A stretch of DNA of 64,000 nucleotides from Arthrobacter sp. Soc17.1.1.1 (GTDB lineage Bacteria; Actinomycetota; Actinomycetes; Actinomycetales; Micrococcaceae). The notes under the pieces are model-generated. The model was not told where the DNA came from and made no database searches. It was given only the letters and a program-made list of their open reading frames with translations. This document shows, piece by piece, positions 8,961 to 27,011 of the stretch. Position 1 is the first letter of the stretch, and every line of letters begins with the position of its first letter. The DNA is taken from contig NZ_JBAJII010000001.1 of assembly GCF_036867195.1 (NCBI RefSeq), positions 744,001 through 808,000 of the forward strand. Direction: 5' to 3'. The translations under genes were made by a program, and so were the position numbers.

Positions 8961-9105
8961 GCCAGGAGACGAGGGTGCTCGGCCCCAACCGGGCCACCGC
9001 GTAAAGAGTTCACGTCCCCTGCATTCCGCGCCGCCACGATATGCGTCCGCACGGCGGCATCCGGTCCTCTTCGTGTTGTCGCCGATAACAGGGCATATGA
9101 CACGG

Positions 9106-9618: not shown

Positions 9619-9641
9619 AACACCTACGTTACTCGCGCGAA

Positions 9642-9866
9642 ATGATGCACCCTGTGAGATCTTCATTCACGCTCGTGCGCCCCGTGGACGCCGTGATCGC
9701 GGAAGATACGAGTGATGGCTCGTCGGCAGTGTTCCTCGTGAACCGAAATCAGCCTCAATCAATGAGGTTCTCAATTGCTGTCGCTGATCCCGATGCGACC
9801 ACGATAAGCGCACGGCTGGCCCTGCACGATGACGACCGCCACCCGAAGAACGCCTCCGGGGACTGA
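9642..9866 (+). pseudogene. C-terminal fragment of an alpha-L-arabinofuranosidase (GH51)
   Basis: The 74-codon frame contains SSAVFLVNRNQPQSMRFSIAV and RLALHDDDRHPKNASGD. These resemble the C-terminal beta-sandwich of GH51 arabinofuranosidases, which typically read AVF(A/V)VNRS...VELTVDL...ALHDDD...NT. No catalytic domain is present, the upstream DNA belongs to vsr on the other strand, and the frame stops before the usual family end. It is therefore a remnant, probably of a chromosomal gene cut when the defence island was gained. The match is from memory of the family, so confidence is moderate. Confidence 0.5.
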
Positions 9867-10062
9867 AACCAGGCCGTTCGCAGACACTTCTACGGCGCAG
9901 CGATGACCGACAGGAAACTCATAGCAGCACTGACCCTCGTGTCAGGGCCAGCCAACTCCCTGACCTGGCCCACGGTCGCTTCCGTCATGTGAGCTGGCCA
10001 AAGCGGCATCCGAGTGTACGCGTTTCAAAGGAGTCAGTGGGCCCTGCCAAAATAGGACGATC

Positions 10063-11370
10063 ATGCATGAGACAAAACCCATCACCGAGCTGACAACCGT
10101 AGAGATCTGTGCCGGAGCGGGAGGCCAGAGCCTCGGACTTCATCTTGCCGGGTTCCGTCACACCCTCGCCGTCGAGATCGACGCCATCGCAGCTGAGACC
10201 CTCAAGCGCAACTTGTCGCGGCTTGCTACGGCCGGAGGGCACCCGGCACCGGACATCGCCATCGGGGACGTCGCTGACGAGTCTGTCTGGAACCCCTGCG
10301 ACTACCCGGGCGTCTCACTACTTGCCGGCGGTGTGCCGTGCCCGCCGTTCTCCATTGCCGGTAAGCAGCTGGGATCCTCGGATGAGCGGGATCTGTTTGC
10401 GTGGGCTGTCGAGGCTGCAGGCCGTATGAAGCCTGACGCCGTCCTGCTTGAGAATGTCCGTGGGTTATCAATGCCGCGTTTCGCCGGATACAGGCAGGCC
10501 GTGCTCGATAGGTTCGCCGAGCTGGGGTACCGGGCCGACTGGCGACTTTTAGAGGCCAGGGACTATGGAGTTCCGCAGCTGCGGCCCCGTTTCATTCTCG
10601 TAGCGTTGCGTGATGAGTTTGCACCGTATTTTGCGTGGCCTGAGCCGATACCTTCTACGCAGACGGTAGGTGGTGCTCTTTACGATCTGATGGCAGAAAA
10701 CGGATGGCCGGGCGCCGAAGCCTGGGCGATGAGGGCCAATCGGGTGGCCCCAACCGTTGTTGGTGGTTCGAAAAAGCACGGCGGACCCGATCTCGGTCCG
10801 ACCCGGGCGAAGCGTGAGTGGCGCTTACTAGGTGTTGATGGTCTCGGAATCGCGGATGCTGCACCTGGTCCTGATGTCCCGGCTGACTTCATCCCCAAAT
10901 TGACGAATGAGATGGTCGCCCGCATCCAGGGCTGGTGGGGTCCCGAATATGAGTGGGACTTCGCCGAACGTAAAGGGCGTAAGACGTCGACATACCGGCA
11001 GATCGGCAACGCGTTCCCCCCACCGGTGGCGCGGGCCGTCGGGGTTGCCATTGCGTCGGCACTACGGAAGGAAGTGAGCGCAACCGGCAATCACGGTGTG
11101 GCCAGCCATGACGAGGTGTACCGGGCGCTGCGTGAGCACGGGGGTTTTGTTTCGCTTGCAGGGCTCCGCAGAGTACTTCGTGGGACCCTGGCCGACCGGG
11201 AGATCGAGCGCAGGGTGGAGTTCATCCGTCGTGATTTCGACGTTGAGGTGCGTCTGCGCGGCGGCGCACCCACATACAAGCTGGGGGAGTGGCGTGCATT
11301 CCGCGGGCAGGAGGACCACTCCCGCCACGAGGTTTTCGCGATCGACCGGCTGCGCTCAAAAATCAGCTGA
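10063..11370 (+). CDS. DNA (cytosine-5) methyltransferase, Dcm/DruM-like, with C-terminal winged-helix-like extension
   Basis: This 435-residue enzyme has ordered C5-methylase motifs: VEICAGAGGQSLGLHLAGF (motif I, 13-31), AVEIDAIAAETLKRN (II), Cys93 in GGVPCPPFSIAG (IV), Glu130-Asn-Val (VI), DYGVPQLRPRFILV (VIII, 168-180) and YRQIGNAFPPPVA (X, about 311-323). About 110 further residues (VASHDEVYRALREHGGFVSLAGLRRVLRG...) look like a winged-helix domain and are not part of the catalytic core. AGGACG precedes the ATG by about five bases. It heads a rightward block of defence genes and is the expected partner of Vsr. It could be the DruM of a Druantia II-like system or the modification enzyme of the genes directly downstream. 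Confidence 0.92.
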   Translation: MHETKPITELTTVEICAGAGGQSLGLHLAGFRHTLAVEIDAIAAETLKRNLSRLATAGGHPAPDIAIGDVADESVWNPCDYPGVSLLAGGVPCPPFSIAGKQLGSSDERDLFAWAVEAAGRMKPDAVLLENVRGLSMPRFAGYRQAVLDRFAELGYRADWRLLEARDYGVPQLRPRFILVALRDEFAPYFAWPEPIPSTQTVGGALYDLMAENGWPGAEAWAMRANRVAPTVVGGSKKHGGPDLGPTRAKREWRLLGVDGLGIADAAPGPDVPADFIPKLTNEMVARIQGWWGPEYEWDFAERKGRKTSTYRQIGNAFPPPVARAVGVAIASALRKEVSATGNHGVASHDEVYRALREHGGFVSLAGLRRVLRGTLADREIERRVEFIRRDFDVEVRLRGGAPTYKLGEWRAFRGQEDHSRHEVFAIDRLRSKIS

Positions 11371-11511
11371 GCGAACCGGCTTTTGCTAAACGCAGTCGGT
11401 TCCCCGAGCAAACCATTCCATGCCCCGGGCTGCGTGGCGCAGGCGGTAAATATGCTTTCAGTGTCAGGATATTGGCAGTCTTCATCAAGAACCAGCTCGA
11501 GGAGTTCCTCA

Positions 11512-12918
11512 ATGTCAGACTTCGGCATACCTCCCACAGGGGAGGACATCAAAGCGGTCATCTACCATCGCCTGAAGCAGGCGATGACCGAAGACGGCGC
11601 GAAAGTAACAATTGACTGGCGCGGCCAGCCACGTCACTTGTACGTAATTTCCCTGCCGGTCGACATGCTCTTCTTCAACCCTGATACTCACCGTATCCGT
11701 GCACAGCGGACGCTCGATCCGGAACGGGATCAGGCAATCCATGAAGATCCCTGGGGATTGGTAGCCCAGAATTACCTCCACGACCTGCTGAGGCAACGGC
11801 CTTCAAACCCGGATCAGACGGATCCTGATTACACGGCGTTACTGGAAGAACTGGATGACGACGGTCAGCGCGAGCCTGGCATCGTCAGCCCGCACGGGAT
11901 CCTCGTGGACGGCAACACCCGGGCCGCGGCGCTGCGCGACCTCAGCGTGCAGAACATCCGGGTCGGCGTCCTGCCTGATGACACCTCTCGTCAGGACATT
12001 AACGCGGTGGAGCTGTCTCTCCAGCTCCGGAAGGACCGACGACGTGACTACTCCTATATCAACCGCCTCATCGCGATCGACGAGGAACTAGGGCGCGGAC
12101 GCTCTGAGGCTGATGTGGCCAGGGGTTTCAACATCAAACTCGGAACCCTCCAGCGCGACCGCTGGGTATACCAGCTCATCCTCGATGCAATCGAGCGCAG
12201 CCGGACTTCAGGCGGTGCGTCCCTGCGGCTGATTGATTTCGAGCAGCACCAGGAAAAACTGCGTGAACTCCACCGGGACTACACAAAGCTAGCTACGACT
12301 GATCCGGATGCCGCGAAGCGACTCAAGCAATCACGTCTGGCGATGGTACTTCTGGATTACCCGAAAACTTCTTTGCGCCTTGCCGAATCAGACTTTCACG
12401 CACGGTACCTCGAAAGCCGCCTGCCGGATGACCTGAGAGGCACCGCTTCGAGCACGAAGAAGATCACCGTTCCGGGTATCCCAGGGGTAACGCTGCCAGC
12501 CCAGAGCAACGAGTCAGCGGCAGCTGAAGCCCTCACGAACCAGCTGCTCCAGGCCAGAGCAGTGGCCGGGAACGCCAAGAATGCGTCCCCGGAGGATGTC
12601 GCCGACGCATCAGCTGTCATCGATAAAGCAAGGCAAGCGTTCGCCGTGGCAGTGAAGCTCGCCGGGCAGAATGCTGAGCTGGTCAAACGCCAGACCGCGG
12701 TTCCCGAACGGCTGACCGACGCAGCAGAGTACGTCACGCAATGTGCAAATGAGTTCGCAGAAGCAAAGGCGAGACGTGCCCTTGACGAGGAAGCCTTCGA
12801 TGACTCACTTCTCGTTCTCCGTGACAGCCTTGAAAGTCTCGCACGGCAGGCCGGGCGAACCTTTCCCACTCCGGGAGACGGCGTAGCCTGGCTTCTCAGC
12901 TCCGTGCGCCCACTGTGA
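11512..12918 (+). CDS. ParB/sulfiredoxin-like nuclease-fold protein of the defence locus
   Basis: This 468-residue protein has a ParB N-terminal-type motif, GILVDGNTRAAALRDL (129-144), resembling the GxRR-type NTP-binding loop region. It is preceded by a strand-rich segment naming input values (VISLPVDMLFFNPDTHRIRAQ). HTH-like helices follow (RSEADVARGFNIKLGTLQRDRWVYQLI), then a long alpha-helical C-terminus. The start is the ATG at 11512 with GAGGAG ten bases before it. Its stop overlaps the SNF2 gene start, so they are translationally coupled. ParB-like proteins in defence loci may act as DNA-loading NTPases or nucleases; which applies here is unknown. Confidence 0.75.
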   Translation: MSDFGIPPTGEDIKAVIYHRLKQAMTEDGAKVTIDWRGQPRHLYVISLPVDMLFFNPDTHRIRAQRTLDPERDQAIHEDPWGLVAQNYLHDLLRQRPSNPDQTDPDYTALLEELDDDGQREPGIVSPHGILVDGNTRAAALRDLSVQNIRVGVLPDDTSRQDINAVELSLQLRKDRRRDYSYINRLIAIDEELGRGRSEADVARGFNIKLGTLQRDRWVYQLILDAIERSRTSGGASLRLIDFEQHQEKLRELHRDYTKLATTDPDAAKRLKQSRLAMVLLDYPKTSLRLAESDFHARYLESRLPDDLRGTASSTKKITVPGIPGVTLPAQSNESAAAEALTNQLLQARAVAGNAKNASPEDVADASAVIDKARQAFAVAVKLAGQNAELVKRQTAVPERLTDAAEYVTQCANEFAEAKARRALDEEAFDDSLLVLRDSLESLARQAGRTFPTPGDGVAWLLSSVRPL

Positions 12919-14747
12919 TGTCCGCGAGCCCTGCCAGCCTCAGTATCAGCTTCGCGGCCGAGGTAACACGCGCCCGGCTTATCGTGCGGACCGGACTAGA
13001 AGGCGATCTTCGCAGACTGGCACTCGGTTTTCACACCAGCACACACCGGTCGCCGGGCACCGTCGAAGTTGATCTAGATGATTTCCTGACGAATCTCGAA
13101 GTCCTCAGCACATGGCCTCACCAGGCTGACGGTGAAGTGACCTGGGATGCCCGGCTACAGGCGCTGGTCGTCGATTCGCTGCACGATGCGCAAACGCTCT
13201 CCCATCAGCTCAGCAACCCGGAGAACCAGGAAGTTGCGGAGGTCGCCTGGACTCCTAACATTCTCGGACCAGAGTGGACAGGCGATCTCACTTCGTTTCA
13301 GCGCCGTGACATCACCAAGCTCCTGTCCCTGCGCCATGGAGCAAATTTCTCAGTTCCCGGAGCGGGAAAAACGAGAGTTGGCTTAGCGGTGTTCCAGGCC
13401 CTGCGCCTCCGGGAGGGCATCGAGCGACTGCTTGTCGTCGGGCCGAAGTCGAGTTACAGCGCATGGCAGTATGAAGGCGCCCACTGCCTGAACCCGGCCC
13501 TGTCACTCGAAGTAGTCGGCAGTGCTCCATCAGCCACCGCCGACACGCTACTCATCAACTATGAGCGCCTCCCCACCATGGTCAGCGCACTGAGCCGGTG
13601 GCTCACCGAGCGACCGTCGATGATCATCCTTGATGAGGCTCACCGAATGAAGCTCGGCGCGGAAGGGGCATATGGCGCAGCTTGCCTCGCCCTCGGCTCG
13701 CGCAGTAATCGCCGGCTGATCCTCACGGGGACACCAGCACCCAATGGAGTCAGGGATTTGGAGAACCTGTTCGGCTTTGTATGGCCGGGCACTGGCCGGC
13801 ACAGCGTCGTGCGGGCTGTCAATGGCGGCAACCTCGCCGACGCAAGCCGCGCACTCAGGCCTCTCTTCACGAGAACCACGAAGAACGAACTCGATCTGCC
13901 GCCCGTGGAAACCCTGATCACCCCCGTTCCCCTGCCGCCGCTGCACGCTGAGATATACGAGGCTCTCATCGGCCAGTTCTCTGCCCGTGTGGGCGGACAT
14001 GAAGGAGATTTCCAGGCTCTGGGCCGGGTCATGGTCTATATGCTCATGGCTGCGACGAGCCCCGCTCTCCTCGCAGTCGGAGGTACAAGATACGAACCGC
14101 TTTCGTATCAGGTTCCGCCGCTTTCCGTACCGCGAGACTCAGCGCTCTATCAGCTGATGCAGGATCTACCGTCGTACGAGATGTCGCCGAAGTACCAGGA
14201 AGTCCTCGCGATCGTCAGCGAGAACGCCGCGCAAGGCCGTAAGACTCTCGTCTGGTCGACTTTCATCCGCAGTCTCACCACCCTGCAGCAGCTTCTCTCC
14301 TCATTTCACCCTGCTCTGGTCCATGGAGGTTCTCCGGACCGCGAGGAACAGATCCAGCGGTTCAGGGACGATCAGGACTGCATGGTTCTCCTCTCTAATC
14401 CCGCGACGCTGGGAGAAGGAATCAGCCTCCATCACGACTGCCATGATGCGATCTATGTCGACCGGGATTTCGCGGCCGGCCGTTTCCTCCAGAGCCTGGA
14501 CCGGATTCACCGTCTCGGGCTTGACCATGGCGTCAGGACACGCATCACCGTCCTTGCCGCCGAGCGGACCATCGATGAAGTCGTCACTGCACGGCTTTCT
14601 CAGAAACTGATATTCATGGGGGGCATCCTGGACGATCCGGCAGTTCAGCAACTCGCTGACCTGAATGAGGAGCCTGCAGCAGGCGGAAACCTGGATACGG
14701 CAGACCTGCAGGCACTCATGGGGCACCTCCGTGCGCCTTCCGCCTGA
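12918..14747 (+). CDS. SNF2-family DEAH helicase/translocase
   Basis: This 609-residue superfamily 2 ATPase has Walker A VPGAGKT at 146-152, DEAH at 239-242 (MIILDEAHRMK), motif III LTGTPAPN at 269-276, motif V ATLGEGISLH and motif VI QSLDRIHRLG. SNF2 proteins translocate on double-stranded DNA without unwinding it. The ATG at 12918 forms a TGATG junction with the ParB-like gene; a GTG at 12915 would give one extra residue. The first 120 residues match no domain I recognise and may contact the partner proteins. The 3' end overlaps the DUF3883 gene by 17 bases. Confidence 0.88.
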   Translation: MSASPASLSISFAAEVTRARLIVRTGLEGDLRRLALGFHTSTHRSPGTVEVDLDDFLTNLEVLSTWPHQADGEVTWDARLQALVVDSLHDAQTLSHQLSNPENQEVAEVAWTPNILGPEWTGDLTSFQRRDITKLLSLRHGANFSVPGAGKTRVGLAVFQALRLREGIERLLVVGPKSSYSAWQYEGAHCLNPALSLEVVGSAPSATADTLLINYERLPTMVSALSRWLTERPSMIILDEAHRMKLGAEGAYGAACLALGSRSNRRLILTGTPAPNGVRDLENLFGFVWPGTGRHSVVRAVNGGNLADASRALRPLFTRTTKNELDLPPVETLITPVPLPPLHAEIYEALIGQFSARVGGHEGDFQALGRVMVYMLMAATSPALLAVGGTRYEPLSYQVPPLSVPRDSALYQLMQDLPSYEMSPKYQEVLAIVSENAAQGRKTLVWSTFIRSLTTLQQLLSSFHPALVHGGSPDREEQIQRFRDDQDCMVLLSNPATLGEGISLHHDCHDAIYVDRDFAAGRFLQSLDRIHRLGLDHGVRTRITVLAAERTIDEVVTARLSQKLIFMGGILDDPAVQQLADLNEEPAAGGNLDTADLQALMGHLRAPSA

Positions 14748-15576
14748 GCAGATTCTGCTAGCTGCTAGACGCTGGCTGGAGGTTCTTCCCACAAGCGGTG
14801 GCATACCGCGGGCGCAGGCGTTACTGACGAACCATATGCAGTACAGCGATCTCGCTCCTACTCAGTACGCGACTGCACTTGGCTGGTTGCGCGAGGTAGA
14901 CCTCCTTGAGTCAGCCGGCTCGGTCTCCTCTCCGGCGAATCTCATCCTGACAGCAATTTTCGAGAAGGCAGCGCCTGCCTGGATGCAGGACGCCGATAAG
15001 CTCATCCGATCGCCCGATGAGCTACCGTCGGACCTTCTCTCCGCCGGGGACGCGCTAGGCGTGGATGCGAACGAGGTCTTTGAGCAGCTAGTCATCAGCT
15101 GGGGCAAGGTCGATACCGCGAGGCGCGAGCTCGTAGGTGCCGCCGGCGAAGCAGCTCTTGTCGCCCTGCTGACGGAGCGCACCGAGGGCCGCGTAGATCA
15201 CGTCTCGACGCGGTCAGATGGGTTCGGCTACGACATCGCTTTCTTCCACGATGCTGGTCGCGCTCATCTGGAGGTCAAGAGCACAACCCGTACCGGCCGT
15301 TTCACGGCGTACCTGTCGCGGCACGAGTGCAGCGTGATGCTCCGCGATGCCCAGTGGGTTCTGGTCGCCGTGCGGCTCACGGCCAGCCTCGATATCGCCG
15401 GGGTCGGCTCGGTGCCCCGTGACTGGATCGCGGCGAATGTACCTTCCGACTCGGGGCCGTTCGGGAGCTGGGCGTCATGCAAACTCGAAGTACCCCCTGA
15501 GATTATTCAGGATCAGGTTCTGCAGCTGGGCAGAGAAGCAGCGAGCTCGCTCCCGCCGTGGCGTATAGCGCGGTAG
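14731..15576 (+). CDS. DUF3883-domain protein with PD-(D/E)xK-like residues
   Basis: This 281-residue protein has a C-terminal DUF3883 domain from about residue 130. It shows GAAGEAAL (Glu140), GFGYDIAFF (Asp168) and HLEVKSTT (Glu181, Lys183), a D...ExK set typical of the restriction-endonuclease fold. The N-terminal 100 residues look helical and may be a winged-helix module. DUF3883 is common in phage-defence operons, where it may act as a nuclease or a substrate-binding domain. The GTG at 14731 is inferred from the 17-base overlap with the SNF2 gene; a longer frame begins inside that gene. Confidence 0.75.
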   Translation: MRLPPEQILLAARRWLEVLPTSGGIPRAQALLTNHMQYSDLAPTQYATALGWLREVDLLESAGSVSSPANLILTAIFEKAAPAWMQDADKLIRSPDELPSDLLSAGDALGVDANEVFEQLVISWGKVDTARRELVGAAGEAALVALLTERTEGRVDHVSTRSDGFGYDIAFFHDAGRAHLEVKSTTRTGRFTAYLSRHECSVMLRDAQWVLVAVRLTASLDIAGVGSVPRDWIAANVPSDSGPFGSWASCKLEVPPEIIQDQVLQLGREAASSLPPWRIAR

Positions 15577-15688
15577 GGCGGATGCTCTCAAGGCGCAGGC
15601 AGGCTAGTGATTTATTGGCTGCTGATACCTGCCAAGGATTTTCGGAGCGAGGATGTTAGGAAATGGCAACGAGAAATGGGGAAATAAC

Positions 15689-16384
15689 GTGGAAGCACCA
15701 GCATGGAATGATCCTGAAAACAATGCCGGAAGTATGATCCGGGGGGCACAGTGGCTCCTGCAGGTAGTCGGGGAAGGGAATACTTTCACAAAGAACGAGC
15801 TTCGCCGTGATTTTCCCGAGGTCTCGCAGATAGACCGGCGAATCCGGGATCTCCGCGATTACGGATGGATCGTGTACTCGAGCACTGAAGACGCCTCACT
15901 GCTCCTGGAAGATCAGAGGTTCGTCAAAGCAGGAGCAGCTGTATGGGACCCGGAAGAACGCCGGAAGGCCGCTCCGCACAAAACCATATCAGCGAAGGAA
16001 AGGCAAGCGGTCTTAGTACGAGATGGATACATGTGCACCCTCTGCGGAATCGCGGCCACAGAGCAATACCCCGACGACATCATCACCACGGCTGTTCTCG
16101 CGGTCTCCCGGAGACTCCTCCTCACCGCCGACAACGATGACGAAGAAGTCTTCATGACCGAGTGCAAACGGTGTAAATCAGGACTCGGCGCAGCGCCTAT
16201 CGACGCACGAGATGTTCTCTCTGCCACCCGTGACCTGAACCCGCGAGAACGCCGCAGGCTCCTGCGCTGGATGGAACGCGGCAGGCGAGGTACAACCGAG
16301 CTGGACCGTGCATGGGCGGCATACAGGCGCATCCCGTCGGACCGGCAGAAGGACTTCATAGACCAGATTCGGCTGGAGGAGTGA
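15689..16384 (+). CDS. HNH-like zinc protein with N-terminal winged helix, catalytic His not evident
   Basis: This 231-residue protein starts with a winged-helix-like segment (FTKNELRRDFPEVSQIDRRIRDLRDYGWIVYSS, 33-65). The ISAKERQAVLVRDGYMCTLCG segment and a paired TECKRCKSG follow, giving zinc cysteines C116/C119 and C159/C162. This is the scaffold of an HNH nuclease, but the segment between the cysteine pairs (TTAVLAVSRRLLLTADN) has no DH or HxxP-type histidine where the catalytic residue is expected. It may be a DNA-binding or inactive variant. GTG 15689 (GGGGAA upstream) and ATG 15653 (GGAGCGAGG upstream) are both credible starts. It is the last gene before a 0.7 kb gap. Confidence 0.68.
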   Translation: MEAPAWNDPENNAGSMIRGAQWLLQVVGEGNTFTKNELRRDFPEVSQIDRRIRDLRDYGWIVYSSTEDASLLLEDQRFVKAGAAVWDPEERRKAAPHKTISAKERQAVLVRDGYMCTLCGIAATEQYPDDIITTAVLAVSRRLLLTADNDDEEVFMTECKRCKSGLGAAPIDARDVLSATRDLNPRERRRLLRWMERGRRGTTELDRAWAAYRRIPSDRQKDFIDQIRLEE

Positions 16385-17110
16385 AAGCTTCCTGAGCCTG
16401 CAGGTCAAAAGGCGCCCGGTTGACGCAGAACAAGCTGATCTATCCAGGGCGGCACCCTTCATATTCTGTTAATAAAAATTATGGACGTCTCACCGGATTC
16501 CAGGCCGGGCTGCACGCCTAATATTCTGCAGAAGCTATTAGCACGCGTAAACTAAGCGCTTTCACTAAGGGAAGAAATTGACCAGGGTTATCCTTCTGCC
16601 ATGCGCAGACCACACTAAGATCGCCCATAAAGGGAAATTAGCAGGGGCGGCTGAGTGCAGTCCGCAGATGGGGTAGAGACTGTGAGTTTGTTGTCTTGCT
16701 GATCCCAGGTGTGCTGCTCGCAGCACACCTGGGGCCCGGCCCGATCCAGGCTGAAGGCCCGGTTTGATGGATGGCCCCGCTGCCTTCCGCGACTCTGGGG
16801 AGCAGCACAGGAACCACAGCTCAGTGACCTCAGGCTTCTCACCGGAAGCCAGCGGGACGAACCAGCCTGGCAGAACTACCATGCGCCGCAAGGTGACGCA
16901 CCCCGGGCCGGGACGTCATCTGACCCCTTGAAAAAGGCTTTGTGGTCGGCCTTGCCTCATGGATGCTCTGTCCGGGTCCGGGAACGGTTCTGCTGGCTCC
17001 CGTCCTTTCCGTTCTGACATGCGGGACACAGGAATGCGGGTTTCAGGCGATATCCGCGCGAATGTCAGTAGTTCACCTTACAGTTGCATAGTGCTGAAGA
17101 GGGGGTGCCG
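16385..17110. other. Gap inside the defence locus, no convincing gene
   Basis: About 0.7 kb separates the HNH-like gene from the DruF-like gene. Short frames on both strands have atypical composition and no recognisable product. The left part is AT-rich around 16465-16520, and a strong perfect inverted repeat lies at 16704-16733. It is the only large break in an otherwise tightly packed rightward block and probably holds the promoter of the second module. Confidence 0.6.
16704..16733. repeat. Perfect 14-bp inverted repeat with 2-base spacer
   Basis: CCCAGGTGTGCTGC at 16704-16717 is followed after TC by its exact complement, ending at 16733. There is no T-run on either side, so it is not a standard intrinsic terminator. 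It could be an operator, a DNA cruciform or a Rho-independent-like structure in the gap between the two defence modules. Confidence 0.7.
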
Positions 17111-19123: not shown

Positions 19124-20021
19124 CCTGCTCCTTCACTGGCTGAGCTCCCGTGAGAAAGACTCCTTCGGCACCGCGATCACAGCAATCGCCGCCATGGCCG
19201 AAGGCACAGCGCAAGCTAGGCACAAGGCTGCCTGGACCTGCCTCAGAGGGATGGAGGAACTGGGGCACCTGGACCTGCTACGGGCAGAGAGCCGGTGGTG
19301 CATCCGTCCCACCACCATCACCCAGCTCCCCGGACCAGCGGCGCTCGCCCTGATTATCGGCAGGCGGACCCCGGACCTGGAGGCTCACCTCGACGACGCC
19401 GCGGCGCTGCACAGGATAGATCCTGCGCCATCCGGGGCCGTATCGTCGGGCAGGCCTTCGACCCTGCTCCTGGAATACGACAGCGAAGCGGACCTGGAGC
19501 AGATCGCAACCCGCGCGGGAGCGCTTTTCGTCTCGTGCATCGCGACTGCCAGAGCCGGGAAGCTCGAACCGCTCGCCCCGGGGCTGCGCACCGCCGGGCC
19601 CAACCAACATGGATCCCAGATCGACAGGTACAGCGTCCGGGCCCGAAGATTCGAGACTGCCGGGACAATGCGGGAGAACGGGCTGTTCCGGCAGCTTGTC
19701 CACGGCCGTAACCAGTACTGGATCCACAGGGCAGGAGAATGGTTCTCCACCACGCATGCTGAAGGCGTCTGCCTTTCCCTGAAGGGTGACGGAACCTCGT
19801 ATCTCCGGTTCCTGGACGCCGAGGGAACCGGAGACCCTGCCGGTACGCTGCGGGTCGACCCTGCGCTGGTGCTGCCGGTGCGGTGTCGCCAGGTGCTGAC
19901 CCTGTGCAGCGGGGTCAGTCCTGCCTATACGGCGGACAGGGCATGGATGTACCACAACGTTCCCCTGTCCGTCGCGGCGGCTGTTGCCCGCTGCGTCCAC
20001 CAGTCTTTGCGGGTGCCCTGA
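19113..20021 (+). CDS. DruG-like protein of a Druantia II-type system (function unknown)
   Basis: This 302-residue protein begins with helices (LLHWLSSREKDSFGTAITAIAAMAEG...) that resemble a winged-helix or helical adaptor; the remainder is strand-rich with no recognised active site. It overlaps the DruF-like stop by 11 bases and ends about 40 bases before the DruE-like helicase, so the three genes form one translational unit. The DruG name is by gene order only. It may be a structural or target-recognition subunit that works with the helicase. Confidence 0.5.
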   Translation: MDGDLLLHWLSSREKDSFGTAITAIAAMAEGTAQARHKAAWTCLRGMEELGHLDLLRAESRWCIRPTTITQLPGPAALALIIGRRTPDLEAHLDDAAALHRIDPAPSGAVSSGRPSTLLLEYDSEADLEQIATRAGALFVSCIATARAGKLEPLAPGLRTAGPNQHGSQIDRYSVRARRFETAGTMRENGLFRQLVHGRNQYWIHRAGEWFSTTHAEGVCLSLKGDGTSYLRFLDAEGTGDPAGTLRVDPALVLPVRCRQVLTLCSGVSPAYTADRAWMYHNVPLSVAAAVARCVHQSLRVP

Positions 20022-20063
20022 TATGTGCCCGCAGCACTCCCGCCTACCTCACAGGAGAGAATG

Positions 20064-23000
20064 ATGACCCTGGATATCGTCGAGACCTTCAGCCATCTGC
20101 GGGGCTCCTACTTCCGCTATTACGACACCCCTTTCGGGCTCGCGGATAAGAGCCTCGAGCAGGAGCGGCGCCGCATCCTGGACCGGGACAATGGCGTCTA
20201 CCGTGAGCCCTTCATCGAGCTGAGACCGGAATACAAGGTATCCGCACTGTCGCTCGAGGAGTCCGCAGCAACGGCGAGCGCTTCGGCGGACCTCGCCGAC
20301 TTCGCCCGGATGGGACTGATCCCTGACGGCCGGGACCTTTACACGCATCAGGAGTCCGCGCTGGTATCGGCGGTGCGCGATAGGCGAAATGTCGTGGTGA
20401 CCGCCGGCACCGGTGCAGGCAAGACCGAAGCCTTCCTGCTGCCTCTGCTCTCGAATCTCCTGTCCGAGTCAGCCTCCTGGGCCGGGCGCGGGGCATCCCC
20501 GGCATCGTGGTGGGATCGGGGCAGCACGCCATTCACGCCGCAGCGTGCGACGGAAACCGGGCGCGTTAAGGCTGTCCGCTCCATCATCCTGTACCCGATG
20601 AACGCACTGGTCGATGATCAGCTCATCCGGCTTCGCAGGACCCTGGACAGCGACGCGGCGCGCAGCTGGCTGGACGCGAACCGGCGCGGTCATCGCTTTT
20701 ACTTCGGGCGGTACACCGGCGCCACTCCTGTCACCGGGGAGCCCGGCGACAGTACTGCCTTGCGGAACCTGCGTTCCTATATGCGGGACATTGATCACCG
20801 GAGCGCGCAGCTGGAGAAGCTTGAGGGTGACTCCCGGTATTTCATGGCGCGTCCCAGGGGAGCGGAGATGGTGTCCAGGTGGGATATGGCCGATGCGGCG
20901 CCGGACATTCTCATCACCAACTACTCGATGCTCAACGTACTGCTGCTGCGTGGTCGCGATAGCAGGTACTTCGACTCCACGCGTCGGTGGCTCGAGGCCA
21001 GTCCCGCGAACCGGTTCACCTTCGTGGTCGATGAGCTGCATTCCTACCGGGGTACTGCCGGGACCGAGGTCGCGCTGCTGATCCGCAACCTGAAGATGAG
21101 ACTCGGGCTGGCGGAGGACTCCGGGCAGTTCCAGGTCATCGCCGCCTCGGCTTCCCTGGAGGCGGGCAGGGACGAGGGCTTCGTCGAGGGATTCTTCGGC
21201 GTTCCCCGCCAGTCCTTCGATTTCCTGTCCGGGCAGCTCGTGCGTGCACAGGATTCGGTGCTGGATCTTTCCGGGACGGGATTCGCGGATGCTGAGGGCG
21301 TTCCCTCCAAGGAGGATATGTCCGCTGCGGCCAGCGCCCTCGGTAATGTCTTCTTCCGGGGCTCGGACGGGACATCCCAGCCGAAGCCGGAAGCAAAATC
21401 ACTGAAGGCCCTGGGGGACGGCCTGTTTCCCGCGCTGCCGGCGGATGCGCGCGCCGGAGCGCTGCAGAAGCTCCTGAAAACCGCCGGATCAGCAAGAGAA
21501 GACTCCGGGGATCTGAGGTGGCCGCTGCTGCGCGCTCATTTGTTCTTCCGCAATGTCCCGGGCATGTGGGCCTGCACGGACCCGGCATGTCCCCAGGCGC
21601 CTAGCGGGAGCAGCAGTGGCCGCCCGGTCGGGCGCCTGTACTCCGAACCGGTTAGCCGGTGCTTGTGCGGGTCGCGGGTGCTGGAATTCCTGTACTGCCA
21701 GAACTGCGGAGACGTCTTCCTCGGAGGTTACGCGCCTGCGGGCTCGACCCAGCGTCCCGGGGCGCAGGTAACCCTCCTGGCCGACCTGTCGGATATCGAC
21801 AGGCTCCCCGACCGGGCAGGCCTTGAACGGACTGCCAGCAACTACCTGCTCTACTGGCCCCGTCAGCAGCGGCCTGATCTGGACGAGCTGGAATGGACCG
21901 CTGATGGCAGGAAGGTCGAGTACGCCTTCCGCCGATCGGTTCTGATGCCCGGGACCGGCGAACTGCGCCCGACGGCGGATGACGACCATACGGGTTGGAC
22001 CTTCCACGTATCCTCCCCTACGGCCAGGCAGGGCCCCGCGGCGGGCGTTCCCAAGCGGGACCCCGAGCAGCTCTCCCCGTTCCCCACGCGGTGCCCGAAC
22101 TGCGCCGATGACTGGGAGATCACGCACACCGCCGACGGGCCGGTGCGGGGAGACGACAAGAAACGCCAGCGCTCACCGATCAGGGCCATGCGGACCGGTT
22201 TCGAGAAGATCAACCAGGTGCTGATCACGGAGCTGCTCCAGGACCTTGACCCGGCAAACCGGAAAACCATCGTCTTCACCGACAGTCGGCAGGACGCCGC
22301 TAAACTCTCCTCCGGTATCGGGCTGCGGCACTACCAGGATCTGCTGCGGCTGCTTCTTCACGCCGAACTCGCCATCGCGGACCGGACCACCGCCGATATC
22401 TCCCTGGCCAGGGAGCGCATCGTCGGCGGAGAGCGAACGCAGGAGAACCTGGAGGCCGTGAAACGGCTGAAGGATAAGGACCTGGGAGCCTACAGCACCC
22501 TGCGCGCGGTCTGGGAGGACGAGAGCGAGCTGCCCGAAGCCGAAGCCATCCGGCGGATGTCCGAGCCGCCCGCGCTCCCTGCGCTGACCGGGCGTGTCGG
22601 CAAGCGCCTGACGCAGATGGGGCTCAACCCCGGAGGCCCGGCCGCGTCCCTCCAGCACACCAGGGAAGACCCTCCCTCGGCGTGGTCCCGGATGTACCGC
22701 TGGGAGCCCTCCCCGGAACGCAGGCAGGACCTGTCCCTCGCACAGGAAAGACTCCAGGACGCCATCGACCTCACACTGCAGAAAGAGGTCATCGACGGAT
22801 TGTTCTCGGGAGCAGGACGCGACTACGAATCACTGGGGCTGGGATGGATCGGACCGCTGGAGCCAGGTGCCGCCGTCCAGCATTCCCCCTCCTCCCCGGA
22901 CGCTATCGCCCAGTCCAGCCTGCGCATCCTCGCGGGAATGCGCAGGTTCGCCGGTATGAGGAACGAATCGGAAACACCGCCCCGGAAGCTGAAGAACTTC

Positions 23001-25493
23001 TGGAAGGCAGCCGCCACCGGGCTCGGCCTGGACATGGACGACATCCAGGCCGGAGTCCTCCGGGCATGGGGCGGAACCGTCTCGAAGTTCCTCATCCACC
23101 CCGATGGAGTGACCATCCACCCGCCGGCGGACACCGAATGGATCTGCCGGAACTGCCACCGCCGCCACCTGGTGTATGCGTGTGGCCTGTGCACCTACTG
23201 CGGGAAGGACCTCCCCGAGGGGACCGCCCGCGAGAGCGAGCTCGTGGACTACTACGGGTACAAGGCCGTTCACGCACAGGGAGAGTTCCGCCTGACAGCA
23301 GCCGAGCTGACCGGCCAGACCGACCGGCTGGACGCCCAGTCCAGGCAGGCCCGCTTCCAGAATGTCTTTCTCGACCAGGCAGAGAACAGGAAAACCGACG
23401 GCATCGAGCTTCTATCAGTCACCACCACCATGGAAGCCGGCGTCGACATCGGCGCCCTCGACTCCGTGGTCCTGGCGAACATGCCGCCCACGCGATTCAA
23501 CTACCAGCAGCGCGTAGGACGCGCCGGGCGCCGCCTCACCCCGATGGCCGTGTCCCTCACCGTCTGCAGGGGCAGGACGCACGACGAATACTACTTCGGC
23601 CGGCCAGAACTCATCACCAACGAGCCGACGCCGAAGCCCTACCTCGCACTGGACCGGCCGGAAATCGTCATCCGCGCCCTGAGAAGCGAGGTACTCCGAC
23701 GGGCATTCGCCGATCTCACCGCTACCCTCACGGAGGAAGAGGGCTTCTCCGGGCCGGGTAGCAACACGCACGGCCAGTTCGGGCTGGTATCCGACTGGCC
23801 GGCAGCCGCCCCGCGGCTCGCCGGATGGCTCCATGACCGCCAGGACCTCATCAGCGACGTCATCCGCGGATTAACGGAATACACAGATCTCCCCCCGGAG
23901 GACCTAGCCCGGGCACGGCAGAGCATCGGCTCGCTCGCCGAGGACATCTCGCGGATCACCTCCGGCCACACCGCGGGCCATCCCGATCTCAGCCAGCGGC
24001 TAGCGGAAAACGGGCTCCTGCCCATGTTCGGTTTCCCCTCGAAAGTCCGCGACCTCTACCTTCAGAGGCCGCGCTCGCCGTTCCCCTGGCCACCGGATAA
24101 CACCATCAACCGCGATGCGGCAATGGCTGTCAGCCAGTTCGCCCCGGGCAGCGAGCTCGTGCGCGACGGCAGGATCTACCCGGTCATCGGCGTGGCATCC
24201 TTCCGCCCGGCCGGCTTCACCGTCCGCCCCGAGGACAATCCCCTCGGCGAGGAACGACTCATCGACATCTGCAGGCAGTGCGCATTCGTCGAGGAGAAAC
24301 CGGCAGGAGCGGACCACGCCGATCAATCCTGCCCGCGGTGCGGCGCCGACCCCGGAACCTTCGGCACCATCGACCTCCGCGAGCCCGAAGGATACCGGGC
24401 AGGCGATTCCAGGGACTTCGACGGAAACTTCTCATGGTCACCCACCTCGACCTCCACCCGAGCCGTCGCCGATCTGCAGGCACTGCTGCAAGTCCCCCTC
24501 AGCGACTCCGTCGCCTACTCCGGCCGCGGCAGGAGATACGTAATCAATGACAACGCGGGCAAGTCCTTTCAGTTCCAGCAGGCGCCCCCCGCCGGCCAGT
24601 GGGGCGGATACCTCGCACTTACCCCGGGCACGTCGGGCAGCCAGCAGTCAGCACCAATCATCATGGCCGCACTAGGAACGATCCAGCCAACAGACTTCCT
24701 GTTCTACGGGCCCCGCTCAGCAGTCAGCGAAGCCCAGGGACTCCGCCTTGACCTCAGGGGCGGCCGGACGCAGCCATACGGGGTATACGACTCCATCCAG
24801 GGCCGCAGGGCCGCATGGTACTCACTGAGCTTTCTCATGAGGACAGTGGCCGCTAAAAATCTCGACATCCAGCCCCAGGAATTCAGCGCCGGAATCCACA
24901 CAGGAATGCAGCAGGGCGAACCCACCACCTTCGCCTTCCTCGCCGACACGCTGGAGAACGGAGCAGGATTCAGCAGCCACCTCGGATCCCCCGGCGTCCT
25001 TCCCGGATACCTCGCGGACATCGACGCCTACCTCGCCGACCTCGGAGGCACCCACTCCACCGAGTGCTCCTCCTCCTGCTACCGCTGCCTCCGCGACTAC
25101 TCCAACATGGCCTACCACGCCCTCCTCGACTGGCGTCTCGCAAGGGACCTCAGAGCGGTCCTCGATGGCCAAGCACTAGCCATCGACATCAGCCACCACC
25201 AGCAGGCCATCAGCAGCTGGGCAAAGGTCTACAACGTGACAGGTATCCATAATCATTTCGCCGCCTGCGGCCTCTGGGAAAACCCCGCCGACGGGCGCGT
25301 CGCGGTGATCCTGCGCCACCCGCTGGAATCCGCGGAAACCGGCCTGATGTCCGCCCGCCTCACCAAAGCAACAGAGCAGATCCGCGCGGACCACAAGAAC
25401 CTCGACGGGGTGGTGTACCTCGACGCGTTCATGCTCGACCGCAACCCAGGCCATGCTGTCGGGCTGATCAGGAGCATCAGAACCGATGACTAA
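20064..25493 (+). CDS. druE: DruE-like giant DEAD/DEAH helicase with C-terminal DUF1998
   Basis: At 1809 residues this superfamily 2 helicase has DLYTHQESAL (Q-like motif, 91-100), Walker A AGTGAGKT (114-121), ILYPMNALVDDQ (Ia), ITNYSMLNVLLLRG, DELH (323-326) and FTDSRQDAAKLSSG. Motif V TTTMEAGVDIG and motif VI QQRVGRAGRR lie near 1120-1160. Several Cys pairs suggest zinc ribbons (CLCGS...YCQNCGD; CPNCADDW; CRNCHRR...CGLCTYCGK; CRQCAF...CPRCGA). The C-terminal CSSSCYRCLRDYSNM near 1670 is the DUF1998/MZB signature. This fusion and size fit DruE; DISARM instead splits helicase and DUF1998 between DrmA and DrmB. AGGAGA precedes two ATGs (20061, 20064); the second has better spacing. Confidence 0.85.
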   Translation: MTLDIVETFSHLRGSYFRYYDTPFGLADKSLEQERRRILDRDNGVYREPFIELRPEYKVSALSLEESAATASASADLADFARMGLIPDGRDLYTHQESALVSAVRDRRNVVVTAGTGAGKTEAFLLPLLSNLLSESASWAGRGASPASWWDRGSTPFTPQRATETGRVKAVRSIILYPMNALVDDQLIRLRRTLDSDAARSWLDANRRGHRFYFGRYTGATPVTGEPGDSTALRNLRSYMRDIDHRSAQLEKLEGDSRYFMARPRGAEMVSRWDMADAAPDILITNYSMLNVLLLRGRDSRYFDSTRRWLEASPANRFTFVVDELHSYRGTAGTEVALLIRNLKMRLGLAEDSGQFQVIAASASLEAGRDEGFVEGFFGVPRQSFDFLSGQLVRAQDSVLDLSGTGFADAEGVPSKEDMSAAASALGNVFFRGSDGTSQPKPEAKSLKALGDGLFPALPADARAGALQKLLKTAGSAREDSGDLRWPLLRAHLFFRNVPGMWACTDPACPQAPSGSSSGRPVGRLYSEPVSRCLCGSRVLEFLYCQNCGDVFLGGYAPAGSTQRPGAQVTLLADLSDIDRLPDRAGLERTASNYLLYWPRQQRPDLDELEWTADGRKVEYAFRRSVLMPGTGELRPTADDDHTGWTFHVSSPTARQGPAAGVPKRDPEQLSPFPTRCPNCADDWEITHTADGPVRGDDKKRQRSPIRAMRTGFEKINQVLITELLQDLDPANRKTIVFTDSRQDAAKLSSGIGLRHYQDLLRLLLHAELAIADRTTADISLARERIVGGERTQENLEAVKRLKDKDLGAYSTLRAVWEDESELPEAEAIRRMSEPPALPALTGRVGKRLTQMGLNPGGPAASLQHTREDPPSAWSRMYRWEPSPERRQDLSLAQERLQDAIDLTLQKEVIDGLFSGAGRDYESLGLGWIGPLEPGAAVQHSPSSPDAIAQSSLRILAGMRRFAGMRNESETPPRKLKNFWKAAATGLGLDMDDIQAGVLRAWGGTVSKFLIHPDGVTIHPPADTEWICRNCHRRHLVYACGLCTYCGKDLPEGTARESELVDYYGYKAVHAQGEFRLTAAELTGQTDRLDAQSRQARFQNVFLDQAENRKTDGIELLSVTTTMEAGVDIGALDSVVLANMPPTRFNYQQRVGRAGRRLTPMAVSLTVCRGRTHDEYYFGRPELITNEPTPKPYLALDRPEIVIRALRSEVLRRAFADLTATLTEEEGFSGPGSNTHGQFGLVSDWPAAAPRLAGWLHDRQDLISDVIRGLTEYTDLPPEDLARARQSIGSLAEDISRITSGHTAGHPDLSQRLAENGLLPMFGFPSKVRDLYLQRPRSPFPWPPDNTINRDAAMAVSQFAPGSELVRDGRIYPVIGVASFRPAGFTVRPEDNPLGEERLIDICRQCAFVEEKPAGADHADQSCPRCGADPGTFGTIDLREPEGYRAGDSRDFDGNFSWSPTSTSTRAVADLQALLQVPLSDSVAYSGRGRRYVINDNAGKSFQFQQAPPAGQWGGYLALTPGTSGSQQSAPIIMAALGTIQPTDFLFYGPRSAVSEAQGLRLDLRGGRTQPYGVYDSIQGRRAAWYSLSFLMRTVAAKNLDIQPQEFSAGIHTGMQQGEPTTFAFLADTLENGAGFSSHLGSPGVLPGYLADIDAYLADLGGTHSTECSSSCYRCLRDYSNMAYHALLDWRLARDLRAVLDGQALAIDISHHQQAISSWAKVYNVTGIHNHFAACGLWENPADGRVAVILRHPLESAETGLMSARLTKATEQIRADHKNLDGVVYLDAFMLDRNPGHAVGLIRSIRTDD

Positions 25494-25535
25494 CCCAGCG
25501 GGCATCATCCCGGTCAGCAATCCCGGGAACAGCCA

Positions 25536-26333
25536 ATGACCACGACGGTCACGGCCATGGAAGTCGTCTCCCGGTTCCGGCGTTCTCCCAGCGCACAGAC
25601 GATCTACCAGAACTGGCTGGCGTCCGAGCACAAGCGGCACGTTGTCTCCGTCGTCATGAGACACGAGGCGCGCACAGTGCTCGCACTGGAAACTGAGGAG
25701 ATCCTGCAGGTATGCAAGACAACAACGCATGCCCTCGGCAACGTCAAGCGCAGCCAGATATCCTCCGTCCACTCGATCCGCGACTGGCATGCACCCTTCG
25801 CGACCATGCATGTCCTTCATTTCATCACCGAGCACCTGGGAAAGCTGCCGACCTGGGAGGAATTCCGGGCCGCCGCACAGCAGCCCCCGTTCTCGGACAT
25901 GACCTGGACGCCGGCTCGGGACGCCATCAAGGAAGCAATACGGCGAGGATCCGCCCCTGATGACGCGAGGGGCGCCATGCGCTGGCGCATAGGAAACTTC
26001 TACTACTCCTTCCTTCGCGAGCAGTACGTCCAGGCGGTACTCCGGGACATAGGGGTGCCCGTCCGGCAGCACCCCCTGGCAGATGCCCTGTTCCGCGTCG
26101 ACTGCTGGGCCGGTGACACGAACATCGATCTCTACATCGGAAATCCCCTCTACCGGAAGGAAAAAGAGGGCCGCAAACTGCAGGCGAGGCGCTTCCTGAA
26201 TGACTCCCGACCCCCTTTCCGGACCTGCGGACTGGAACTGTGCACACAGCACATCTTCGGTGAGGTCCACCTGCCCGGCCGCGACGTCATCCAGCGGGCC
26301 GCGGAACAGATCAGCCAGCAACGCCGGCAGTAA
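25536..26333 (+). CDS. Accessory protein of the Druantia-like locus, unknown function
   Basis: This 265-residue soluble protein starts 42 bases after the druE-like stop on the same strand, so it is probably part of the operon. The N-terminal half is helical. The C-terminal part has REQYVQAVLRDIGVPVRQHPL followed by RVDCWAGDTNIDLYIGN, a helix then Asp-rich strands reminiscent of restriction-endonuclease folds, though no clear ExK is seen. Two cysteines near the end (TCGLELC) could bind metal. It is not among the four named Druantia II genes, so it may be a system-specific effector or an unrelated passenger. Confidence 0.6.
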   Translation: MTTTVTAMEVVSRFRRSPSAQTIYQNWLASEHKRHVVSVVMRHEARTVLALETEEILQVCKTTTHALGNVKRSQISSVHSIRDWHAPFATMHVLHFITEHLGKLPTWEEFRAAAQQPPFSDMTWTPARDAIKEAIRRGSAPDDARGAMRWRIGNFYYSFLREQYVQAVLRDIGVPVRQHPLADALFRVDCWAGDTNIDLYIGNPLYRKEKEGRKLQARRFLNDSRPPFRTCGLELCTQHIFGEVHLPGRDVIQRAAEQISQQRRQ

Positions 26334-26475
26334 CCGCCGGCAATCCCGGAATGCTCACCCAGGGTGAAGAGAGCACCTGCCCCAGGAAAGCAGATGCCGC
26401 GCCAGTGATCCCGCGAAGCACCCAGCCGTGCCAGGCACCATCAAGCTTATGCTCATCATCGCGACTGGAAGTGGT

Positions 26476-26984
26476 GTGTCCTGGGTTTCGCGTGGTCCGA
26501 ATTTCTTGGATTCTCATGCCACGGTGATGATGCGGTTGCGCTCAAACTCTATCGGGCTGAGCCATACAAGCTGGCTATGACGGCGTTTTCGGTTGTGCCA
26601 GATCTCGAGGTAGTCGAACATCGCGTTCGCCAGTTCGATGCGGGTGTTCCACTTCTGTCGGTCCAGGAGCTCGACCTGCATCCGTGACCAGAACGACTCG
26701 ATCATCGAGTTGTCGTAGCAGTCACTAATGCTGCCCATCGAAGCCATCAGGCCAGAATCACGCGCCCTCTTCGTAAAGGCCCAGAACCGGAACTGGACCC
26801 CGTGATCGGAGTGAATGATCGTCCCCAAGCTGGTGCTCTTCCCAATCCGGCTGTCGATGGCCATTCCCAGCGCGTTCGTCACCAGTGCGGCCGTGGGCGA
26901 AGAGTCGATGGACCAACCGACGACTCGCCGTGAATAGGTGTCTAGGACCGCGCAGCAGTAGATTTTTCCCTCGCGCGCTTGCAT
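26476..26984 (-). pseudogene. IS3-family transposase (OrfB) remnant and element end
   Basis: The frame at 26514-26984 encodes the C-terminal rve part of an IS3/IS150-type transposase: REGKIYCCAVLDTYSRRVVGWSID, IIHSDHGVQFRFWAF, SDCYDNSMIESFWSRMQVELLD and WHNRKRRHSQLVWLSPIEFE, covering the second D and the E of the DDE triad. The N-terminal part and orfA are missing because an IS30-like remnant begins just beyond 26990. TGTCCTGGGTTTCGCG at 26476, next to the 3' end, is probably the right terminal repeat. The copy cannot be active. Confidence 0.82.
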
Positions 26985-27011
26985 TCCAGCAGTCGTCGCA
27001 ACACGGTTGCT

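Follow-up and report, generated by a model that had tools for sequence, protein, structure and literature searches.

Related systems

CglI/NgoAVII-type systems resemble the cassette described here in that a nuclease and an ATP-using motor accompany a C5-methylase, but their NTPase and nuclease come from other families and they are not known to have a ParB-type protein. DISARM and Dpd (SNF2 proteins DrmD and DpdE) also place an SNF2 ATPase beside a DNA-modifying enzyme. The locus lies in a 64,000-nucleotide stretch of Arthrobacter sp. Soc17.1.1.1 (the window, to which all coordinates refer); its SNF2 protein matches DpdE at 59.2 bits and DrmD at 40.1 bits, and its methylase matches DrmMII at 89.3 bits (PADLOC). 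The cassette differs in having Vsr and a ParB-type protein, and DrmB and DrmC are absent among the matches listed for the nine proteins scanned in the block (for the methylase, the best 25 of 58 families). In NaeI/NgoMIV Type II restriction-modification, directed at GCCGGC, the resemblance lies in related loci, where enzymes of the NaeI or NgoMIV family accompany a methylase of this family and, in most cases, Vsr. In contrast, neither enzyme is found in the window's genome, and the window adds ParB-type, SNF2, NOV_C and HNH-like proteins. Druantia type II (DruM, DruF, DruG, DruE) has a C5-methylase, a DruF-like and a DruE-like gene in one block, as the window does. The window carries DruL rather than DruG between DruF and DruE, its type IV profiles score higher, and its methylase belongs with the cassette instead of the Druantia genes. 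Druantia type IV is described, in a passage of PMC8565338, as DruE, DruF and DruL without DruM and DruG. The window has these three genes in one direction with type IV profiles matching best, and differs in having a methylase cassette 0.73 kb upstream and a 265-aa gene 42 bp downstream.

Layout of the locus

An earlier note, made from the letters alone, read positions 10063 to 26333 as a one-direction gene block, and its ORFs are real: nine co-directional ORFs were recovered on the plus strand (10063-11370, 11383-12918, 12915-14747, 14665-15576, 15653-16384, 17084-19123, 19113-20021, 20025-25493 and 25536-26333). Its gene list omitted vsr, a minus-strand gene at 9106-9666 that belongs with the first half. 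The composite nature of the locus holds in that a gene set built on a methylase does stand beside Druantia genes, but not in the form proposed, a Druantia II with DruM split off. Module 1 (9106-16384) encodes Vsr, a C5-methylase, a ParB-type protein, an SNF2 protein, a nuclease-like DUF3883/NOV_C protein and a degenerate HNH-like protein; module 2 (17111-25493) encodes DruF, DruL and DruE. The stretch between them (16385-17110, 0.73 kb) holds no recognisable remnant of NaeI, NgoMIV or GmrSD, the best match in tblastn with six endonuclease queries having an E value of 1.5. DNA similarity to the nearest relatives, loci L017 and L019, is confined to 10060-16324 and stops at the HNH-like gene, before DruF. 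The loci survey favours two separate modules arranged head to tail, a ParB-SNF2 methylase cassette followed by Druantia type IV.

The modules occupy a variable chromosomal spot (about 8986-37612). In one relative, matching flanks end at window position 8985 and resume at 37613, and unrelated DNA of about 10.8 kb fills the space between them. Variable spots collect defence genes, and the modules may well be plain island neighbours with no functional link, an explanation that is compatible with two modules and that we hold to be rather likely. The spot itself speaks for it, as do the difference in G+C (60.7% in module 1 vs 65.1% in module 2) the other nucleases that also adjoin the cassette, and the varying layouts; the co-occurrence counts given below weigh against it.

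The Druantia module

DruF (17111-19123, plus strand; the ORF opens at 17084) matches DruF4 (PDLC00052) at 707.7 bits vs 482.2 bits for DruF2. DruL (19113-20021, plus strand) has DruL4 (PDLC00057, 201.3 bits) as its sole PADLOC match, and DruE (20064-25493, plus strand; the ORF opens at 20025) matches DruE4 (PDLC00051) at 2409.9 bits vs 1856.4 bits for DruE2. The 670-, 302- and 1809-residue proteins thus find the DruF and DruE matches that had been expected of them, but the second gene is DruL and no DruG match appears, so the former type II assignment gives way to type IV. The 1809-residue protein, previously called a helicase-DUF1998 protein, has DEAD and Helicase_C domains in Pfam but no Pfam DUF1998 match at E<=0.01. 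These profiles identify 17111-25493 as Druantia type IV, with predicted anti-phage activity. On plasmids, DruF has six partial matches of 24-29% identity.

The 265-aa protein encoded downstream (25536-26333, plus strand) carries a faint structural indication that it may be a PD-(D/E)XK nuclease, with no Foldseek match at E<=0.001. It has no plasmid match, and among 396 phylum genomes only the window's own copy was found; in locus L089 one relative sits next to a NaeI gene and a cassette.

Methylase, Vsr and the predicted target

The first gene of the block (10063-11370, plus strand) encodes a C5-cytosine DNA methylase, as originally read (PF00145, 173.9 bits), with conserved PCPPFS and ENV motifs. 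The observation that no second methylase is visible also stands: methylase profiles match the first of the nine scanned proteins only. The minus-strand vsr gene encodes a very short patch repair endonuclease acting on T:G mismatches (TIGR00632, 143.3 bits; PF03852, 74.4 bits) with a conserved DGCxWHxC region.

The family was surveyed in 80 related loci. They are the top 80 among 229 relatives retrieved with the ParB-type protein, a choice that under-samples divergent cassettes. Contig ends cut several loci, so that neighbour counts are lower bounds. The methylase is present in 78 loci and vsr in 70; vsr was not found in L017 and L019. In the methylase tree the window is sister to L017 plus L019 (SH-aLRT 100), whose own methylases are 94.3% identical.

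The most likely target of the methylase is GCCGGC, because NaeI or NgoMIV, both of which cut this sequence, is present in 31 of the 80 loci (NaeI in 24, NgoMIV in 7). The prediction is drawn from the partner enzymes of relatives that are 83% identical to the window methylase. Passages in the literature give the NgoMIV site as G|CCGGC (PMC4081073), M.NgoMIV as a GCCGGC, m5C enzyme (PMC12114051) and the NaeI site as GCCGGC (PMC7653180). A passage in one review has GCC|CCG as the NaeI site. This counts against the reading, as does the absence of any GCCGGC depletion from the window (94 observed vs 98.3 expected).

The exchangeable endonuclease

L017 carries NaeI directly after the HNH-like gene (PF09126, 313.3 bits; PDB 1ev7, E 1.8e-66), and L019 carries NgoMIV there (PF09015, 357.3 bits; PDB 1fiu, E 1.8e-84). 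These unrelated endonucleases thus occupy the same slot despite their nearly identical methylases. In the window the place after the HNH-like gene is taken by Druantia. Neither NaeI nor NgoMIV matches in the window's genome (G000, 98.8% complete), with searches that recovered NaeI in G581 and NgoMIV in G583; an endonuclease of another family is possible there. None of NaeI, NgoMIV, GmrSD or Druantia is in reach in 38 of the 80 loci, some of them cut by contig ends.

ParB-type, SNF2, NOV_C and HNH-like proteins

The ParB-type gene (plus strand) lies in an ORF that opens at 11383; family alignments and the sequence make 11512 the likely start (11512-12918), therefore giving a protein of about 468 aa. 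The label "ParB-like" found no Pfam ParB match at E<=0.01 but is supported by the predicted structure, an N-terminal ParB/Srx NTP-binding fold followed by an HTH region and a long helical part. GNTRxAAL is invariant across 35 aligned sequences. The protein is predicted to be a DNA clamp with an HTH, probably nucleotide-dependent and putatively CTP-binding. The next gene (12915-14747, plus strand) encodes, as first annotated, an SNF2-family ATPase (PF00176, 52.5 bits; PF00271, 31.4 bits) in which SVPGAGKTR, DEAHRMK and DRIHRLG are conserved. The DUF3883 gene is likewise borne out (NOV_C/DUF3883, PF13020, 30.7 bits); its ORF opens at 14665, with a likely start at 14731 from family alignments (14731-15576, plus strand). 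A passage in PMC3710099 terms DUF3883 a novel REase domain. The product is a putative PD-(D/E)XK nuclease in which GYDi...HlEvKsT, the putative active site, is conserved across the family.

The HNH-like protein (15653-16384, plus strand), assigned from family alignments and found by tblastn in all 80 loci, has a wHTH-like N-terminus and a CxxC/CxxC finger. The cysteine pairs that underlie the HNH-like label are kept, but Pfam gives no match, HNH included, at E<=0.01, and the catalytic His is not seen at the expected place in either family alignment group, judged against the HNH consensus. The protein looks catalytically dead. Two of the sequences extracted from the 80 loci are very short (3 and 118 aa).

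NOV_C is present in 48 of the 80 loci; in the other 32 it was not found by tblastn or HMM, in at least one case (L037) due to a contig end. Clustering of nearby ORFs in the NOV_C-less cassettes yielded NaeI-like genes and no universal replacement nuclease. With NOV_C missing in 32 loci and the searched partner nucleases in 38, part of the family lacks a recognised cutting enzyme, which counts against a restriction system. Rather than restricting DNA, the cassette could serve remodelling and repair around methylated sites, with a ParB/SNF2 remodeller, Vsr repair and no nuclease of its own, the attached Type II enzymes doing the cutting. The loci where NOV_C was not found, the missing catalytic His and the presence of a repair enzyme, Vsr, are consistent with this. 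It appears distinctly unlikely, since NOV_C proteins keep their putative active site and the 38 loci would be left with no known cutter.

Recurrence of the cassette

SNF2 accompanies ParB and the HNH-like gene in 80 of the 80 loci, ParB by construction because the loci were found with it. DruE is in reach in four loci and was not found in 76; stretches around four further cassette relatives also gave no Dru match. The cassette therefore recurs without Druantia, and the proposal of an extended Druantia II, with the methylase as DruM and the four genes before DruF as extra subunits, is very improbable. The single transcription direction and the DruM2 profile (PDLC00032, 718.8 bits) fit it, but MTase_II (PDLC03304) scores higher at 758.5 bits, DruL stands in place of DruG, and the DNA similarity to L017 and L019 ends before DruF. 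The methylase that matches DruM2 profiles lies 5.7 kb upstream of the Druantia genes but travels with the cassette.

Ten plasmid ParB matches were obtained and eight neighbourhoods inspected, one of them without annotation. Distant ParB and SNF2 genes adjoin a cytosine methylase and/or Vsr on plasmids of Rhizobium, Mesorhizobium, Azospirillum and Lactiplantibacillus. A Streptomyces albidoflavus plasmid matched ParB, SNF2 and NOV_C only, with no methylase or Vsr match, and the incomplete gene tables of Kozakia and Enterococcus plasmids show no methylase or Vsr nearby; these plasmids weigh against the restriction-modification reading. Close to L013, a cassette on a plasmid, lies an HNH gene that proved unrelated to the family (15% identity). 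Six stretches of viral contigs matched a pattern, and none encodes a ParB relative. No published description of the ParB/SNF2 cassette was identified in the literature searched, and the cassette is apparently unnamed.

Association with Druantia

The two halves do meet elsewhere, in four layouts. DruL occurs in 8 of 49 cassette genomes vs 5 of 396 phylum-drawn genomes, the window's own among the five (P=1e-5); the two samples are not matched for genome size or kinship, the 49 stem from 50 of the 80 loci with L067-L096 outside the sample, and some matches are weak (58 and 102 bits among the eight, 33 and 35 bits among the five). Genus g76, which we take to be Streptomyces, comprises 219 genomes, with DruL in 9, a strong ParB match in 33 (G748 and G658, with weak matches, excluded) and both in 4 (one-sided Fisher P=0.031; P=0.038 with the two weak matches), and three of its nine DruL loci lie within 14 kb of a cassette. 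The figures suggest that co-occurrence exceeds expectation from two background samples. They count against the island-neighbour explanation, although defence-island clustering alone could yield the DruL enrichment.

Eighteen loci were fetched around Druantia genes; L157 is a cassette locus and is not counted, which leaves 17. A screen of BLAST matches plus two motifs places C5-methylases, of more than one kind, close to 11 of the 17, and none is in the fetched stretch of the other six. Five of the 17 (L152-L156) come from genomes that were selected because they carry the cassette; near the 12 drawn from phylum and genus samples the count is seven. L045 and L146 are apparently one locus, their coordinates in G608 and G698 being identical, and L055 is L156.

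Methylase sharing or synergy between the modules is possible, and sharing was what the earlier note favoured; the halves do co-occur elsewhere with a C5-methylase often nearby, but the six loci with none tell against it. The cassette mark would then be a self-mark for exchangeable effectors: Druantia IV would hold the NaeI/NgoMIV slot, and a single methylase would shield the host from the ParB/SNF2 branch and from Druantia alike. The position of Druantia in the window, the lack of NaeI or NgoMIV matches in its genome and the full-length fit of the DruM2 profile are in its favour. Cassette-Druantia neighbours also occur in several lineages (the label needs four changes on the methylase tree, three forced by supported branches), and in G766 the surroundings of a Druantia IV locus include NaeI, Vsr and methylase genes, while ParB gave no reported match. 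We nevertheless consider sharing unlikely. Druantia does not follow the HNH-like gene in three of the four layouts, the modules are 0.73 kb apart, the sampling of the five loci above may bias the count, and L113, L115, L154 and L155 have a long DruF (from about 1,000 aa upwards) with weak DruL matches, so that they may not be type IV. Type IV is moreover described as lacking DruM, and we know of no report of Druantia reading 5-methylcytosine.

Proposed function and implications

The locus is probably made up of two independent defence modules, a restriction-modification-like cassette and Druantia type IV. In the cassette, the C5-methylase would mark host GCCGGC sites, and Vsr would repair the T:G mismatches left by deamination of 5-methylcytosine. 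The ParB-type clamp, with its HTH, and the degenerate HNH/zinc-finger protein may recognise or load on DNA and recruit the SNF2 translocase, and the DUF3883/NOV_C protein would cut DNA without the host mark. At an exchangeable position, many cassettes also have NaeI or NgoMIV, Type II enzymes that cut at this site, or some other nuclease.

A more far-reaching possibility, which we regard as doubtful, is that the GCCGGC methylase and Vsr form a fixed hub, with NaeI, NgoMIV, GmrSD-type nucleases, the ParB-clamp/SNF2/NOV_C machine and even Druantia IV as interchangeable effectors that respect one mark; here Druantia would have replaced the Type II enzyme. If so, a ParB-type CTPase clamp would be a DNA-recognition part of a restriction system.

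For annotation, the PADLOC DruM profile matches this methylase mostly with no Druantia in reach in the loci surveyed, and can mislead. Because NaeI and NgoMIV replace each other next to methylases of 94% identity, the methylated site can be predicted directly, and loci where cassette and Druantia adjoin allow a test of whether the methyl mark is used or respected by Druantia. If the cassette is a restriction system, its ParB-type clamp and SNF2 motor would represent a novel means of distinguishing self from foreign DNA.

Gene content and Druantia type

The nine ORFs that the earlier note placed on a single strand are present as described there. Its assignment of the downstream genes to Druantia type II gives way to type IV, which supplies the best PADLOC profiles. 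The DruF ORF (17084-19123) scores 707.7 bits with DruF4 versus 482.2 with DruF2, the DruE ORF (20025-25493) scores 2409.9 bits with DruE4 versus 1856.4 with DruE2, and the DruL ORF (19113-20021) has DruL4 as its sole PADLOC match (201.3 bits). Judged by these profiles, the genes at 17084-25493 are Druantia type IV. According to the available text of PMC8565338, this type contains DruE and DruF, has DruL in place of DruG and lacks DruM. The cassette half (9106-16384) encodes a C5-methylase, an SNF2 protein and a NOV_C/DUF3883 protein in addition to ParB-like and HNH-like proteins. It also includes a Vsr gene (9106-9666; TIGR00632, 143.3 bits) on the strand opposite to the other ORFs, which was missing from the earlier list.

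The cassette as a separate system

The cassette is a system of its own, independent of Druantia. Genome contigs were scanned with alignment A1 of the ParB-like protein, and the best 80 of the 229 relatives found were taken. In tblastn searches of these best 80 loci with the window proteins, ParB (by construction), SNF2 and HNH-like genes are found at 80/80, the methylase at 78, Vsr at 70 and NOV_C at 48; DruE is found at 4, and DruF, DruL and the 265-aa protein encoded after DruE (25536-26333) at one each. The ParB protein occurs in 5 of 196 host relatives, counting the window's own genome, and the stretches fetched around it in the other 4 contain no Dru match. It is also present in 35 of 219 genomes (2 of them weak matches) of genus g76, which we take to be Streptomyces. 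On plasmids of Rhizobium, Mesorhizobium and Azospirillum, distant ParB, SNF2 and DUF3883 genes lie near Vsr and/or a cytosine methylase, and a Lactiplantibacillus plasmid carries a distant version with dcm, ParB, SNF2 and Vsr. In contrast to these plasmids, matches on a Streptomyces albidoflavus plasmid are limited to ParB, SNF2 and NOV_C, and neither methylase nor Vsr is seen nearby in the incomplete gene table of Kozakia and Enterococcus plasmids. DNA of the two nearest cassette relatives, L017 and L019, aligns to parts of window 10060-16324 at 69-76% and has no other match to 8001-28000, so that the shared module stops at the HNH-like gene and Druantia forms a separate block.

The whole block sits in a variable spot (8986-37612), since congeneric relatives keep the flanks but hold other DNA between them. 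In locus L173, one of these relatives, DNA matching window 6085-8985 is separated from DNA matching 37613-43893 by about 10.8 kb, most of it unmatched; both edges recur in L174 with a spacing of about 15.3 kb, and L171 and L172 do not reach the right edge within 20 kb. The G+C content falls from 70.0% in the left flank to 60.7% in the cassette, with Druantia at 65.1%. Integrase-core (rve) fragments on the minus strand at 26514-28535, likely transposon remnants, adjoin the 265-aa gene, and two large minus-strand ORFs of 674 and 671 aa (28507-30531 and 35028-37043) have no Pfam or PADLOC match, the stretch surrounding the former having 50.5% G+C. Further along, 47128-48288 encodes an SNase-domain protein (PADLOC C3a212, 85.6 bits) and 51345-52568 an Excalibur calcium-binding domain fused to a GmrSD C-terminal domain. 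Elsewhere, a relative of the 265-aa protein lies between Vsr and a NaeI gene with the cassette adjoining (L089:15255-17052).

Endonuclease exchange and the probable methylation target

The gene immediately following the HNH-like one encodes a member of the NaeI family in L017 (PF09126, 313.3 bits; PDB 1ev7, E 1.8e-66) and of the NgoMIV family in L019 (PF09015, 357.3 bits; PDB 1fiu, E 1.8e-84). These are different families with one common site, GCCGGC. In the text available from each source, NgoMIV cuts G|CCGGC (PMC4081073), M.NgoMIV produces m5C at GCCGGC (PMC12114051) and the NaeI site is GCCGGC (PMC7653180); the GCC|CCG given for NaeI in the accessible part of PMC4081073 is read here as a misprint. 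L017 and L019 have methylases with 94.3% identity to each other, and either is 82.8% identical to that of the window, which is their sister (SH-aLRT 100) in a methylase tree of 79 rows made by quick search. NaeI and NgoMIV labels require 6 changes on this 79-row tree. The window's genome has no match to NaeI or NgoMIV in searches that were positive in the L017 and L019 genomes, respectively. Partner genes were screened at the best 80 of 229 loci with six endonuclease queries (tblastn, E<=1e-5, >=100 aligned residues): 24 loci have a NaeI-like gene and 7 an NgoMIV-like gene; a GmrSD-like gene is present at 8 loci and Druantia genes at 4, one locus having both of the latter, and 38/80 have none of these by tblastn. 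The simplest reading of these comparisons is a methylase that marks GCCGGC and whose partner nuclease is swapped. The GmrSD-like gene, a further nuclease in this exchangeable neighbourhood, adjoins the cassette in L023, L024, L025, L029, L030, L040, L044 and L054.

Association with Druantia

Druantia genes are within reach of the cassette (flanks <=10 kb) at 4 of the best 80 of 229 loci. DruL is present in 8/49 cassette genomes tested versus 5/396 phylum genomes, the window's own included (one-sided Fisher P=1e-5, for samples unlike in genome size and kinship). Among the 219 genomes of genus g76, 9 have DruL, 33 a strong ParB match and 4 both (P=0.031), with DruL <=14 kb from the cassette in 3 of these 4. 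The layouts vary: Druantia follows the HNH-like gene in the window and Vsr in L055/L156, it lies past the methylase with DruF facing the latter in L145, and DruE faces the methylase in L037, L044, L045/L146 and L150. A C5-methylase is found at 11/17 Druantia loci examined and at 7/12 of those picked independently of the cassette; several examined loci have a long DruF and may belong to a type other than IV. Genome G766, for which no ParB match is reported, has NaeI, Vsr and methylase genes in the neighbourhood of Druantia IV. Given this co-occurrence, the varied layouts and the C5-methylases near Druantia, sharing of the methyl mark between the two halves, synergy and plain clustering in defence islands are all possible. 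A precedent for synergy of neighbouring systems, in the portion of PMC12458937 available, is ARMADA II with Druantia III.

Three genes follow DruE at the genus g76 Druantia IV locus L150:9432-14088, the last encoding Hsp70 (PF00012, 193.3 bits) and the other two lacking Pfam or PADLOC matches. At L113:7290-10310, L154:4099-7173 and L155:9768-12842, DruL and DruF matches share one open frame of ~1,000 aa that looks like a DruF-DruL fusion.

Proposed mechanism and implications for annotation

The comparisons above establish which genes make up the cassette, that the set recurs, is conserved and is independent of Druantia, and that the enzymes are exchanged; its mode of action is proposed from these. 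In the most likely mechanism the methylase would protect GCCGGC, and Vsr would repair 5-methylcytosine after deamination. ParB and the finger protein (the HNH-like protein) would recognise DNA or be loaded onto it, SNF2 would travel along it and NOV_C would cut unmarked DNA. A type II enzyme, where present, would be a second cutter using the same mark, and Druantia IV would act as a second defence system.

The ParB-like and HNH-like proteins have zero matches in PADLOC-DB 2.0. No identifiable description of the cassette was found in the literature searched, outside which lie supplementary files and most subscription papers, and it is not described in the available text of PMC3710099, PMC8011034, PMC12458937, PMC12839542, PMC10853773 or PMC11090510; its parts may be present in REBASE. 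The PADLOC DruM2 profile PDLC00032 fits the cassette methylase over its full length, both in the window (10063-11370, 718.8 bits) and at L145:7536-8846 (631.3 bits). Because of this full-length match the cassette methylase may pass as DruM, and a DruM call beside Druantia may really be the methylase of the cassette.
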